Shown: in pieces, positions 22,390-27,271 of the stretch | Layout of the letters: each line of letters starts with the position of its first letter | Position numbering within the stretch: the first letter of the stretch is position 1 | DNA from: Brevundimonas sp. LM2 | GTDB taxonomy: Bacteria > Pseudomonadota > Alphaproteobacteria > Caulobacterales > Caulobacteraceae | Length of the DNA: 64,000 nt | Assembly: GCF_002002865.1 (NCBI RefSeq) | Contig: NZ_CP019508.1 | Coordinates: forward strand, 558,001 to 622,000 | Direction: 5' to 3' | Program-made: the position numbers and the translations under genes | Notes under the pieces: model-generated | Seen by the model: only the letters and a program-made list of their open reading frames with translations | The model's database searches: none | Told to the model about the DNA's origin: nothing

Positions 22390-22923
22390 TTGAGCACGTC
22401 CAAATATCCGTCGTCCTTCGACCATGCGGCCCTGCTGGCCTCGGGCCGGGGCGAGCTGTTCGGGCCGGGCAACGCCCAGCTGCCGGCCCCGCCGATGCTG
22501 ATGTTCGACCGGATCACCCAGATCAACGGCGACGGCGGCGAACACGGCAAGGGCTATGTCGAGGCCGAGCTGGATATCCATCTGGACCTCTGGTTCTTCC
22601 AGTGCCATTTCATCGGCGATCCGGTCATGCCCGGCTGCCTCGGCCTGGACGCCATGTGGCAGCTGGTCGGCTTCTACCTGGGCTGGATCGGCGGCCCCGG
22701 GCGGGGCCGGGCGCTGGGCGTCGGCGAGGTCAAGTTCACCGGCCAGGTCCAGCCGGACGTCAAGAAGGTCACCTACAAGATCACCCTGAAGCGCGTCATC
22801 AACCGGCGCCTGGTCATGGGCATCGCCGACGGGGTGATGGAAGCCGACGGCGTCCCCATCTATACGGCCACGGACATGCGGGTCGGTCTGTTCGGCGCGG
22901 GCGAAAAGCCGGCCGAGGCCTGA
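22390..22923 (+). CDS. fabA: 3-hydroxydecanoyl-ACP dehydratase/isomerase
   Basis: A 177-residue enzyme of type II fatty-acid synthesis that dehydrates 3-hydroxydecanoyl-ACP and isomerises the product, so introducing the cis double bond of unsaturated fatty acids. The active site is visible: H73 in [15 protein letters not shown] and D87 in [19 protein letters not shown] near the N-terminus is the family signature. The start is a TTG (22390) preceded by CCGGAG; the next in-frame Met would delete the signature. It is followed by fabB at 56 bases, the conserved fabA-fabB operon. Confidence 0.96.
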
Positions 22924-22979: not shown

Positions 22980-24209
22980 ATGCGGCGTGTCGTCGTCACC
23001 GGTCTGGGTATCGTCTCCTCCATCGGCACGGGTGCCGAAGAGGTCACCGCCTCGCTGCGCAGCGCGCGGTCGGGCGTCGTCGCCGCCCCCGACCATATCA
23101 AATACGGCTTCCGCTCCCAGGTCTGGGCCCCGCCGTCGCTGGGCGTGACGGCCGAGGACTGGGCCCCTCTGGTGGACCGCCGCGCGGCGCGCTTCCTGGC
23201 CAACGGCACCGCCTGGGGTCACATCGCCTTCGAGGAGGCCTTAAAGGACTCCGGCATGACGGCGGACGAGATCAAGGACGAGCGCATCGGCCTGATCGTC
23301 GGCGAGGGCGGCCCGTCGACCCAGGTCATCCTGCAGGCCGCGGCCACCACGGTCGAGCGGACCTCACCCAAGCGGATCGGGCCGTTCGCCGTGCCCAAGG
23401 CCATGGCCTCCGGCCCTTCGGCGGTTCTGGCGACCTGGTTCCAGCTCAAGGGCATCAACTATTCCATCTCCTCGGCCTGCGCGACCAGCGCGCACTGCAT
23501 CGGGGCGGGGGCCGAGCAGATCCAGTGGGGCAAGCAGGACGTGGTCTTCGCCGGCGGGGTCGAAGACATCGACTGGTCCATGTCCAACATGTTCGACGCG
23601 ATGGGGGCCATGTCCTCGAACTTCAACGCCACGCCGTCCGTGGCCAGCCGCGCCTATGACGTCGCCCGCGACGGTTTCGTCATCGCCGGCGGGGCCGGCA
23701 TCGTGGTGCTGGAAGAATACGAGCGGGCCGTGGCGCGCGGCGCGAAGATCTACGGAGAGATCGTCGGCTACGGCGCCAACTCGGACGGCCACGACATGGT
23801 CGCCCCGTCCGGTGAAGGGGCTGAGCGCTGCATGAAGATCGCCCTGGCGGAGGCCGGCAACCGAAGGATCGACTATCTGAACCCCCACGGCACCTCGACG
23901 CCGGTCGGGGACTCCAAGGAGATGGGGGCGGTCCGCAACGTCTTCGGTGCCGACATGCCGCTGATCTCCTCAACCAAGTCCCTGACCGGCCACAGCCTGG
24001 GGGCGGCGGGCGCGCAGGAGGCGATCTATTCCCTGCTGATGCTGCACCACGGCTTCGCGGCCGAAAGCGCCCATATCGAAACCCTGGATCCCGAGTTCGA
24101 GGGCATGCCGATCCTGCGCGAGCGCAGGGACGTCGAACTGACGACGGTCATGTCCAACTCGTTCGGCTTCGGCGGCACCAATGGGACGGTGATCTTCTCG
24201 AAGGTCTAG
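22980..24209 (+). CDS. fabB: 3-oxoacyl-ACP synthase I (KAS I)
   Basis: A 409-residue condensing enzyme. The Cys-His-His triad is C167 (SSACATSAH), H303 ([11 protein letters not shown]) and H338 ([12 protein letters not shown]). With FabA it elongates unsaturated acyl-ACP chains. ATG 22980 follows AAGGAAACACC. The stop codon overlaps the stop of the oppositely oriented protease-nuclease gene (shared CTAG at 24206-24209). In most alphaproteobacteria fabI would follow directly; here it is displaced by 2.2 kb. Confidence 0.96.
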
Positions 24210-26287
24210 ACGGCCGCGAAACGGTCGGCCTTCAGCACCGCCTTGGGGAAACGGACCAGGCCGATCCGGGCCTGGAGGGTCTTCAGCGGCAGCATGTGCC
24301 GCCGCCAGCGGGCTTCCGGATCGAATTCGAAGGCGACCTTGGTCAGGTCCTGCTCGAGCAGGAAGCCGAAGGCGGCCAGATCGTCTCCGTCGCGCGCCAC
24401 GATCACCTTCCAGTAGGCGCGGGGAATGCGGACGGACACGGGACCGGCATCGTCGACGCCCAGGAAGACGGGATCGTCGTCGACCAGAAGCGGGCCGGCG
24501 AACAGACAGTATCGCTCGGTCGCGCCCTGATCCTCGATCTCGTTTTCCAGCTCGCCCCACAGGCCGTCGAATTTCGACTGGTTGAAGCCGGCCACCTGAG
24601 GCGTGCAGTTGGTCACGTGATAGGTGTCGCCATTGGCGCGCCGGACCTGGGCGTGGTCCACGCCCCAGCAGACCTCCTCGCGGCGGACCAGGTGACCCTT
24701 GTCGAAGGCCTGCCGGTCATTGTTGAAGAACCGCTCGGGCAGCTGAGATGACGCCGGCAGCCGGGGATCGAGGAACCACTTCTCCCGGTCCTTCTCTCCC
24801 AGCCCGCCCAGGGCGCGCCGCGTATAGACGAAGCCCGGCTCCGGCTCCTTGGCGGCGGGGGAAAAATCCACATTGGCGGCGGTGAAGATCGGCAGGCGGC
24901 GAAGCCGGTGCATAGCCAGGGTGAAATGCTCATACGGCACCAGAACCCCCTGGCCGTCGGTGCGGGGCGTCGCGTCCGCGGCGTCCGTCAGATCCGGCAG
25001 CGAAACCGCGATCCCCAGGAAGTCCGGGCGGTACCCCTTGCGGCCCACGTAGTCGGGATCGTGCCAGGGCTCGACATTGCGCTCCGGCGCTTCGGCCAGG
25101 GCCGGGGCACCGGGGGCTGCCGCCATGCCCAGCCGCACGGTCACGGTCAGGGGGATGGTCACCTCTCCGAACGTCGTCGATGCGACCGCGGTGGGGGCCG
25201 GGGCCGGGGATGCGACCGGGCCGGGGGCGACATGCTGTTCCGTCGGGCGACGTGTCCCGGCTGCGGTCCCGCTCGCCGGCCGGATCTGGCCGAGGCAGGC
25301 CGCCTCCAGCCCGGATCCCAGCGGCCCATCGGGCGCCAGGCCCAGCACCGTGCTCGCCACCCGGCTGGCACGGACGCCCTCGTTGGCGATCCAGTCGACA
25401 TCGGCGTCGTCGTCGTCGTCGCCGACGGGCGTGCCGTTTTTCAGCAGCCAGCGGCCTTGCGCGTCCTTCCGCGGCACGCCGGAGTGATGCAGGGCCACGA
25501 CCTGCCAGGAGTCGTTGAAGACCGGGGCGCCGGACGAGCCCGGCGCGGTATCGGACTCGTAGGTCAGGTGGTCGGCGCTGATCGACAGCAGGCGGTTCTC
25601 GCGCAGGGCGATCTGTTTGGCCCGACCGTTGGGGTGCTGAATGACCGTGATCGGCTCCCCCTCGTTGATCTTGCCCAGATCGGGGCTCAGCCGCAGCCAG
25701 CCGTAGTCGTCGAGCCGACCCGGGCCGTTCAGCGGGTCCGCCCCGACGGCGACCAGGGCGAAATCCAGACCGGCGTCGGCGACGAAGAACCGGGCCGGCT
25801 CCAGCGCGAAGGTCGTCGTCGGCCGCTCGAACCCCATCAGGTCCAGTTCGCAGTCGAACAGGGCCAGAGACGCCGCGGCGTCGGCGGCGGTGGGAAAGAC
25901 GTGATGGTTGGTGAGAAGCAGGCCCGGCGCGATCAGAAAGCCGGTGCCGTCCCCCAGGCTGCGCCCGGTCGCATCTCGGATCGCCAGCCGCGCCACCGCC
26001 CTCGCGGCCTGCAGGCCCCGCGCCAGATAGTTGACATCGACCAGATCGTCGCGACCGAGCGTCCGCTCCAGTTCGGAGCGCGAAATCTTGCGTCCGCCTT
26101 CTTGGAGCTGGAGTGTGCGGGCCTGCCGGCGCGCCTCGGTTTCGAACTGCCCGGGCGCCGTGGCGTCGGCCCGCGCCTTCAGCAGCTCGATCGCGGTTGG
26201 GGCTCCGGGTCCGGTCGGAGGCTGCACCTCCGCCGTGACGCGGCGCTCGGTGGCGTCGACGGTCTCGCGAATGCGTTCGATCTTCAT
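24206..26287 (-). CDS. Trypsin-like serine protease fused to a DNA/RNA non-specific endonuclease
   Basis: A 693-residue two-enzyme protein. Residues 1-90 are charged and probably helical. A trypsin-like domain spans about 95-315, with H129 (LLLTNHHVF), D175 (GLDFALVAV) and S252 ([10 protein letters not shown]). An acidic run (290-295) and a Pro/Ala linker (335-370) follow. The C-terminal part (about 405-690) is a NucA/NUC1-type nuclease with DKGH (529-532), N569 in GFNQSKFDG and E579/E581 in WGELENEI. No signal peptide is visible, so it should act in the cytoplasm. The nuclease family degrades DNA and RNA and is normally secreted or inhibited. Proteolytic release or gating of the nuclease is an inference. 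It lies between fabB and fabI on the opposite strand, with no immunity gene in sight. Confidence 0.85.
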
Positions 26288-26449
26288 AGGAGAGCCCTCC
26301 GCCCGTCAACCTAACGTGGATATGCGACAGCCGCGAGTCGGGCGGGATCACGACCACGCCATGCGGCGCTTTGCACGCCCGCGCCGCCGCTGCTAACCCT
26401 CCGCTCACGAACCGCTCGGCCGCAAGTCGGGATCAAGAGGAGACGCCTG

Positions 26450-27271
26450 ATGGCCACCGAATCGACCTGGAACATGCCCGCGGGCGAACTCATGAAGGGC
26501 AAGAAGGGCCTGATCATGGGGGTGGCGAACGCCAATTCCATCGCCTGGGGCATCGCCTCCCAGCTGGCCGCCCAGGGGGCCGAGCTGGCCTTCACCTATA
26601 TGGGCGAGGGGCTGGAGCGCCGGGTGCGGCCGCTGGCCGAGAGCGTCGGCGCGAAACTGCTGATCCAGGCCGACGTCACCGACGACGCCTCGATGGACGC
26701 CGCCTTCGCCGCGCTCGAGGCCGAGTTCGGCACGATCGATTTCGTGGTCCACTCGGTCGCCTTCGCCAACAAGGACGAGCTGAAGGGCTCCTTCATCGAC
26801 AACACCAGCCGCGACAGCTTCCTGCTGGCCATGAACATCTCGTGCTTCAGCTTCGTCGACGTCGCCAAACGCGCGTCCAAGATCATGCCCAACGGCGGGT
26901 CGATGATCACCATGACCTATCTGGGCTCGGAGCGGGCCATCCCCAACTACAACACCATGGGCGTGGCCAAGGCGGCGCTGGAGGCGGCGACCCGCTACAT
27001 CGCCCGCGACCTGGGTCCCAAGGGTATCCGCGTCAACGCCATCTCGGCCGGGGCCATGCGCACCCTGTCGCTGGCCGGCATCTCGGGCGGCCGGGGCATG
27101 ATCGCCCAGGGCCGGGCGATGTCGGCGATGAAGGAGGACACCTCGATGGAGGGGGTCGCCGGAGCCGCCCTGTGGCTGTGCTCGGACCTGGGCCTGTCGA
27201 CCACCGGCGAGGTCATCCACGTCGACGCCGGCTTCCACATGATGGGTCTGGCGGGCGACGAAGAGGCCTGA
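26450..27271 (+). CDS. fabI: Enoyl-ACP reductase (NADH)
   Basis: A 273-residue SDR-fold enoyl reductase that completes each round of fatty-acid elongation and is the triclosan target in many bacteria. Key residues are Y157 (MTYLGSERAIP), Y167 and K174 in the YNTMGVAK motif, and the cofactor-binding start GLIMGVANANSIAWGIA. ATG 26450 follows AGAGGAG. It is co-directional with fabA-fabB but separated from them by the antisense protease-nuclease gene and a 162-base gap, so it must have its own promoter. A bidirectional terminator follows. Confidence 0.95.
   Translation: MATESTWNMPAGELMKGKKGLIMGVANANSIAWGIASQLAAQGAELAFTYMGEGLERRVRPLAESVGAKLLIQADVTDDASMDAAFAALEAEFGTIDFVVHSVAFANKDELKGSFIDNTSRDSFLLAMNISCFSFVDVAKRASKIMPNGGSMITMTYLGSERAIPNYNTMGVAKAALEAATRYIARDLGPKGIRVNAISAGAMRTLSLAGISGGRGMIAQGRAMSAMKEDTSMEGVAGAALWLCSDLGLSTTGEVIHVDAGFHMMGLAGDEEA

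Follow-up and report, generated by a model that had tools for sequence, protein, structure and literature searches.

A stand-alone trypsin-nuclease fusion of Brevundimonas sp. LM2 as a candidate self-releasing member of the NucA-trypsin family

What does a protease joined to a nuclease in a single cytoplasmic chain do between two genes that we take to be fabB and fabI? This question is raised by a gene on the minus strand of Brevundimonas sp. LM2, at 24206-26287 of a 64,000-nucleotide (nt) stretch, hereafter the window, to which all coordinates refer. A first-pass annotation of the same DNA had read the product as an unexported fusion held inactive until its protease releases the nuclease, and the gene as cargo inserted into a conserved fabA-fabB-fabI block. 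As described below, the gene is a new stand-alone member of the already described NucA-trypsin family. Its best explanation, to which we would give about even chances, is a stand-alone pro-nuclease of this suspected self-destruct family, with its own protease cutting the linker upon a trigger. The new elements are the hypothesis built on E402, T247 and H267, the many relatives without an adjacent partner gene, and a corrected argument on the locus.

First, both enzymes are complete. The gene is a real open reading frame (ORF) of 693 amino acids (aa), in whose product Pfam found Trypsin_2 (residues 114-266, E 8.4e-23) and Endonuclease_NS (443-676, E 8.6e-29), and with the predicted structure these give the domain order trypsin, linker, endonuclease. 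When relatives were collected, 1239 proteins reached E 1e-3 or better among the 7995 candidates scored, and both domains were present in 119 of the 120 relatives listed. In an alignment of 119 rows (the query plus 118 of the 119 other relatives on the list; the remaining one, of 427 aa, was left out for length), H129, D175, S252, H532, N569 and E581 were each found in 119/119, and the earlier reading of a trypsin-like and NucA-type fusion with complete catalytic sets is borne out. That reading had named both E579 and E581 for the nuclease; we assign the glutamate to E581, because it is invariant and position 579 varies (most often L 28, K 28, R 24 and D 13). The features of the gene and its two enzymes are given here, with predicted local distance difference test (pLDDT) and predicted template modelling (pTM) scores where they apply.

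24206..26287, minus strand: gene for the trypsin-like protease/Endonuclease_NS fusion, 693 aa (ORF list, Pfam)
26296..26300, minus strand: GGAGG, a ribosome-binding-like site 8 nt ahead of the fusion ATG (read from the intergenic sequence)
26003..26287, minus strand: N-terminal helical region, residues 1-95, not confident as a separate fold (modelled alone, pLDDT 73, pTM 0.34)
25328..26002, minus strand: trypsin-like protease domain, about residues 96-320 (Pfam, predicted structure, alignment)
25901-25903, 25763-25765 and 25532-25534, minus strand: catalytic H129, D175 and S252 of the protease domain
25547..25549, minus strand: T247, candidate Glu-type S1 pocket residue (119/119; presumed role)
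25487..25489, minus strand: H267, candidate Glu-type S1 pocket residue (119/119; presumed role)
25406..25420, minus strand: acidic run D290-D294, within the conserved tail of the protease
24209..25081, minus strand: Endonuclease_NS domain (EndoG/Serratia nuclease fold), residues 403-693 (Pfam, structure comparison, alignment)
24692-24703, 24581-24583 and 24545-24547, minus strand: DKGH 529-532, N569 and E581 of the nuclease domain

For the N-terminal region a death-like domain was considered, but its separate model is weak, and the VIA-align rows fall mostly on the nuclease, with some on the protease. Ahead of the protease, an ERxxGxxDLVD-type motif at residues 74-84 (26036-26068) is strongly conserved, and it may be a latch on the protease.

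Second, judged from its sequence, the product is cytoplasmic. By hydropathy no export signal or membrane helix was found (best 19-residue value 0.12 in the first 60 residues and 1.43 over the whole protein), and a whole open frame of just 699 aa leaves no room for a longer form with a signal; the earlier statement on export is confirmed on hydropathy and frame length, no signal-peptide predictor having been used. Pfam also gave no repeat or targeting domain in the 693-aa product, no bDLD2 or EAD1, and no nuclease of the metallo-beta-lactamase (MBL) fold. Exported nucleases and delivered toxins can both contain Endonuclease_NS domains, and the fusion might be imagined as a toxin that reaches other cells through some uncharacterised route, with the protease trimming it on passage. 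However, with no signal, membrane segment, Pfam repeat or targeting domain, and with fabB and fabI as direct neighbours, this appears highly improbable.

Third, both enzymes are kept under selection. Over six pairs among the four Brevundimonas copies, the ratio of nonsynonymous to synonymous substitution rates (dN/dS) was 0.10-0.30 for the protease and 0.15-0.35 for the nuclease, against 0.21-0.41 for the N-terminal region and 0.46-0.85 for the linker; therefore, both enzyme domains appear to be maintained by purifying selection.

The junction between the enzymes was then described by three features.

25091..25270, minus strand: linker, residues 340-399, predicted to be flexible (pLDDT <50 in the predicted structure)
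25127..25174, minus strand: strand-like conserved motif within the linker, residues 372-387 (P379 in 103/119)
25082..25084, minus strand: E402, where linker meets nuclease; candidate P1 cut site proposed from the alignment

The domains had been described as joined by an acidic run and a Pro/Ala linker. The flexible stretch is indeed predicted, but the acidic run lies in the protease tail, and the linker is not only Pro and Ala, as the P379 motif shows. This strand-like motif, lying in an otherwise disordered linker, is visible in System 3 operon proteins (introduced below) too. Apart from this motif and E402, the linker columns are mostly variable. The E402 column holds E in 108/119 rows, and the remaining 11 have E two residues further on; a Glu is found 12-15 residues ahead of R416 in 119/119 rows (exactly 14 in 106), and elsewhere the linker is Glu-poor, with at most 9 of the 119 rows having one at each offset from 17 to 59 before R416. 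Among 14 further family members, drawn largely from partnered operons, all 13 that could be scored also kept the boundary Glu (L062 gave no pattern match), as did 8/8 scorable of the 10 Caulobacteraceae loci sought, including six LypC-type proteins. As for the protease, its sequence matches in the Protein Data Bank (PDB) are glutamyl endopeptidases and their kin, namely V8-like enzymes and Spl proteases, and the conserved T247 and H267, which we take to be the Glu-pocket positions of the glutamyl endopeptidase group, align with T and H of one PDB member and with V and H of another. From these positions we infer that a protease with a V8-like pocket would cleave after Glu at or near E402. V8-like glutamyl endopeptidases and Spl proteases are secreted, single-domain enzymes, whereas the window protein is cytoplasmic and fused to a nuclease. 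On the nuclease side, EndoG/CPS-6 is mitochondrial and Serratia nuclease is secreted, and neither is fused to a protease.

Using these parts, the stand-alone pro-nuclease would work as follows. A single cytoplasmic chain would hold a possible sensor or latch (the helical N-terminus), a V8/HtrA-like serine protease and an EndoG/Serratia-type nuclease, which would be kept inactive by the linker with its conserved strand motif around P379. A trigger, perhaps infection or loss of cell integrity, would switch the protease on, the protease would cleave after a Glu (most likely E402) in the linker of its own chain or of a neighbour, and the freed nuclease would destroy DNA or RNA and halt the cell, in a putative act of self-sacrifice. 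The earlier proposal that the nuclease is released or unmasked by proteolysis probably holds in outline, in line with what Kaur et al. (2020, PMC7159879) propose for NucA-trypsin proteins.

Several points weigh against this scheme. Cleavage could as well occur in trans, or be absent. The N-terminal region modelled alone gave a weak model, and for this reason the sensor role is only a guess. E402 sits where model confidence rises (block 401-410 at 82), and because the conserved P407, D410, Y413, R416 and G418 follow it, E402 may simply belong to the nuclease fold; a second common Glu place is present at offset 10 before R416 in 42/119 rows. Near the sampled stand-alone relatives, whose neighbours are mixed, no recurring partner or defence neighbour was found. 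Finally, although the LypC type has the boundary Glu as well, LypC-driven lysis needs protease and not nuclease residues (PMC13236601), which speaks against the nuclease being the killer in every case.

This last point suggests a different view, in which the protease is the working effector on host or phage proteins and the nuclease is stabilising or accessory, as in LypC. In the CARD-NLR-like LypABC system of Caulobacter crescentus, S296A abolishes lysis and H471A/N505A still lyse, and a C. endophyticus LypC lacks the nuclease (both from PMC13236601). LypC comes from the same bacterial family as the window protein, has the same domain order and both active sites, and belongs to a cell-lysis system. 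It is distant, however, with 31% over the nuclease of a LypC-type protein; the catalytic Ser-His spacing is 175 residues in the LypC type vs 280 in the fusion; and LypC is encoded with LypA and LypB, whereas the fusion is adjoined by fabB and fabI (LypA and LypB were not searched genome-wide). In a quick tree of 82 nuclease-domain rows, with 22/79 inner branches unsupported, the LypC-type rows (n=4) form a group of their own with a Shimodaira-Hasegawa-like approximate likelihood ratio test (SH-aLRT) value of 100, and the window protein lies outside it; LypC itself was not fetched, and the LypC-type label rests on the matching spacing of 175 in one of the four rows. Given this separation, the invariant H532, N569 and E581 and the purifying selection on the nuclease, we consider a protease-only effector unlikely.

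The family itself was introduced by Kaur et al. (2020, eLife, PMC7159879), who present NucA-trypsin fusions as "System 3", a predicted conflict system in which a proteolytic cascade brings about activation, table 45 organisms, describe it as mostly alphaproteobacterial, and note that NucA and trypsin are fused in one protein in some members; a follow-up paper (PMC8195603) gives the class again. The window protein resembles System 3 in having a NucA-type Endonuclease_NS with a fused trypsin-like peptidase. Multi-gene versions hold several peptidase genes, whereas no second peptidase, EAD, bDLD2 or STAND gene adjoins the fusion, and because its direct neighbours are fabB and fabI, we file it as the core protein and not as a full System 3 locus. 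For the stand-alone form, no paper was found in literature searches covering open-licence PMC.

The effector could still belong to a System 3-type circuit of several genes, the rest of them encoded at other places in the genome, and the relatives allow this to be weighed. In a collection of species genomes, a relative is encoded by 218 of 285 pattern matches, and the best of them gave 79 loci in Pseudomonadota, Bacteroidota, Cyanobacteriota, Chloroflexota, Planctomycetota and Gemmatimonadota, with five more phyla (Verrucomicrobiota, Acidobacteriota, Myxococcota, Actinomycetota and Rokuibacteriota). After removal of one Brevundimonas duplicate (78 loci) and of 5 loci without a called fusion, 73 were left for the neighbourhood analysis. 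System 3-like operons surround a minority of relatives: in Hoeflea (L065), a trypsin-NucA-subtilase, a trypsin, a bDLD2-trypsin and an AAA protein that we read as STAND; in Asticcacaulis (L074), a similar gene order with a NACHT protein, the trypsins having no bDLD2 match; and in Sphingomonas, an EAD1-trypsin (L061) and an EAD5-trypsin (L075). Among 85 neighbour proteins, bDLD2 gave one match. On the tree, the 10 partnered rows, labelled by hand, cluster more than shuffles, yet require at least 6 changes (2 forced by starred branches), and the three-row Brevundimonas group of the window (support 99) groups with partnered rows from Sphingomonas and Bosea (support 86), which speaks for such a circuit. 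Against it, 26/73 loci have no same-strand neighbour within 200 bp, and the Hoeflea STAND-like query matched in 0/4 carriers (nor in a sixth genome, G256), with the control genome G221 matched and other STAND types not searched. The Asticcacaulis STAND query was negative too, with no control, and the bDLD2 profile matched in no genome at all and is hence not readable for the carriers. A dispersed circuit is, in our judgement, quite unlikely.

The locus was then examined with these neighbours, all under presumed names.

22390..22923, plus strand: fabA, context (ORF list)
22980..24209, plus strand: fabB, context; its stop shares 4 nt with the fusion stop
26450..27271, plus strand: fabI, context; divergent, 162 bp from the fusion start

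The fusion is thus convergent with fabB (4-nt stop overlap) and divergent from fabI. In the survey of 131 Brevundimonas genomes, 3 had no fabI match and one with a split fabI was not fetched, and the other 127 gave 128 rows (one genome twice). The fabB-fabI interval was <=400 bp in 14 rows and >400 bp in 49, and in 65 no fabB was present in the fetched stretch; by a hand count from the rows, 51 of these 65 had the full 9.3 kb upstream of fabI and 14 had a stretch shortened by a contig end or edge. The conserved fab block of the first-pass annotation is not confirmed by these counts. The related argument for a cargo insertion is weak: the fusion is located in this same interval in 4/4 carrier genomes, but the interval is variable, composition is ordinary (gene GC 0.700 vs window 0.696; GC3 0.870, near the bottom of the 0.860-0.949 spanned by seven neighbours), and no long direct repeat was found at the two ends of the gene. 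A recent mobile insertion was rejected on this composition and lack of repeats, integrases not having been searched for. When the 162 bp ahead of fabI were compared with empty-site spacers from five relatives, only short stretches were in common, and the exact join is therefore unreadable.

The same counts bear on whether this is a cytoplasmic housekeeping or stress-turnover enzyme without a part in defence, one that might, for example, salvage nucleic acids as cells die. Its window neighbours are genes presumed to be for fatty-acid synthesis, the ribosome and the signal recognition particle, and the mixed neighbours of the stand-alone relatives would suit such a role. Any match was found in 6/131 Brevundimonas genomes and the full-length protein in 4/131; in the sampled family genomes any match was found in 18/249, mostly partial. 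The gene is therefore not, as the earlier annotation had allowed as a refuting case, a housekeeping gene conserved across Caulobacterales, and a housekeeping gene of a conserved fab block was rejected. As the relatives are scattered over many phyla and plasmids, the pattern is that of an accessory gene, and we hold the housekeeping role to be very unlikely.

A stronger form of the stand-alone pro-nuclease can be stated, tentatively and with more doubt than confidence: a one-protein death device of latch, Glu-specific protease and EndoG-like nuclease, cutting itself at the positionally fixed E402 without help from an NLR or a partner protease, and frequent as a stand-alone protein. If true, it would be a self-contained bacterial counterpart of the apoptotic protease releasing EndoG. 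An experimental precedent is given by the trypsin-activated MBL pro-nucleases of Hachiman, AVAST, Lamassu and DRT (Tuck et al. 2025, PMC12799240), where a protease likewise activates a pro-nuclease, but the fold is unrelated, protease and nuclease are on separate genes, and HamM is cut after Ile. In the open-licence PMC literature searched, experimental work on the family itself was found for LypC only, a distant relative in a three-gene system with a seemingly dispensable nuclease. With selection acting on both active sites, a stand-alone member offers the simplest system for questions of release, cut site and trigger.

A search of defence collections, as first suggested, gave no PADLOC model over the full protein, with weak matches of the protease part only, to RT-Protease (E 1.8e-8 and 7.8e-8) and LmuA (0.033). 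PADLOC on 90 neighbour proteins from 18 hand-picked loci of 167 listed gave single matches (restriction enzymes, pAgo, CARF-RtcR and others), each family in one protein, and with no background control enrichment is unreadable. Plasmid records matched the fusion in 114/72,556 cases, 13 over >=80% of the query. A phage origin was rejected: a single phage record out of 50,697 gave a match, which spanned 13% of the query, viral contigs gave one weak match at 24% identity, and PHROG gave one match, of unknown function, to the protease part.

The interval between fabB and fabI (window 24210-26449; L094-L239) is a variable gene site in Brevundimonas. In the carriers G103 and G043 it measures 4.1 kb, with about 1.9 kb beside the fusion; in G043 this part holds a Na+/H+ exchanger (L010:7932-9206, plus strand, PF00999 by Pfam), and G103 has the same spacing and was not scanned. 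An ORF cluster including this exchanger is the commonest interval content in the genus (25 ORFs), as called by a crude ORF caller that took wrong frames in the window's own interval. Other contents, by our reading of the sequences, presumably include a hybrid histidine kinase, alpha/beta hydrolases, a Fic-like protein and an M28-like peptidase, beside exchanger-type genes.

Three further arrangements were seen among relatives. In a Deltaproteobacteria metagenome-assembled genome (MAG), a TPR-S sensor domain is fused to a second trypsin directly downstream of a relative (L066:11101-12771, plus strand). In a Chthoniobacterales MAG, a patatin-like protein (weak Pfam match, below cut-off) overlaps a relative by 4 bp (L027:7893-10004, plus strand). 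In the Caulobacteraceae genome G271 (L244, L256), a single open frame of 1629 aa carries the trypsin and nuclease parts of the family behind a large N-terminal extension.
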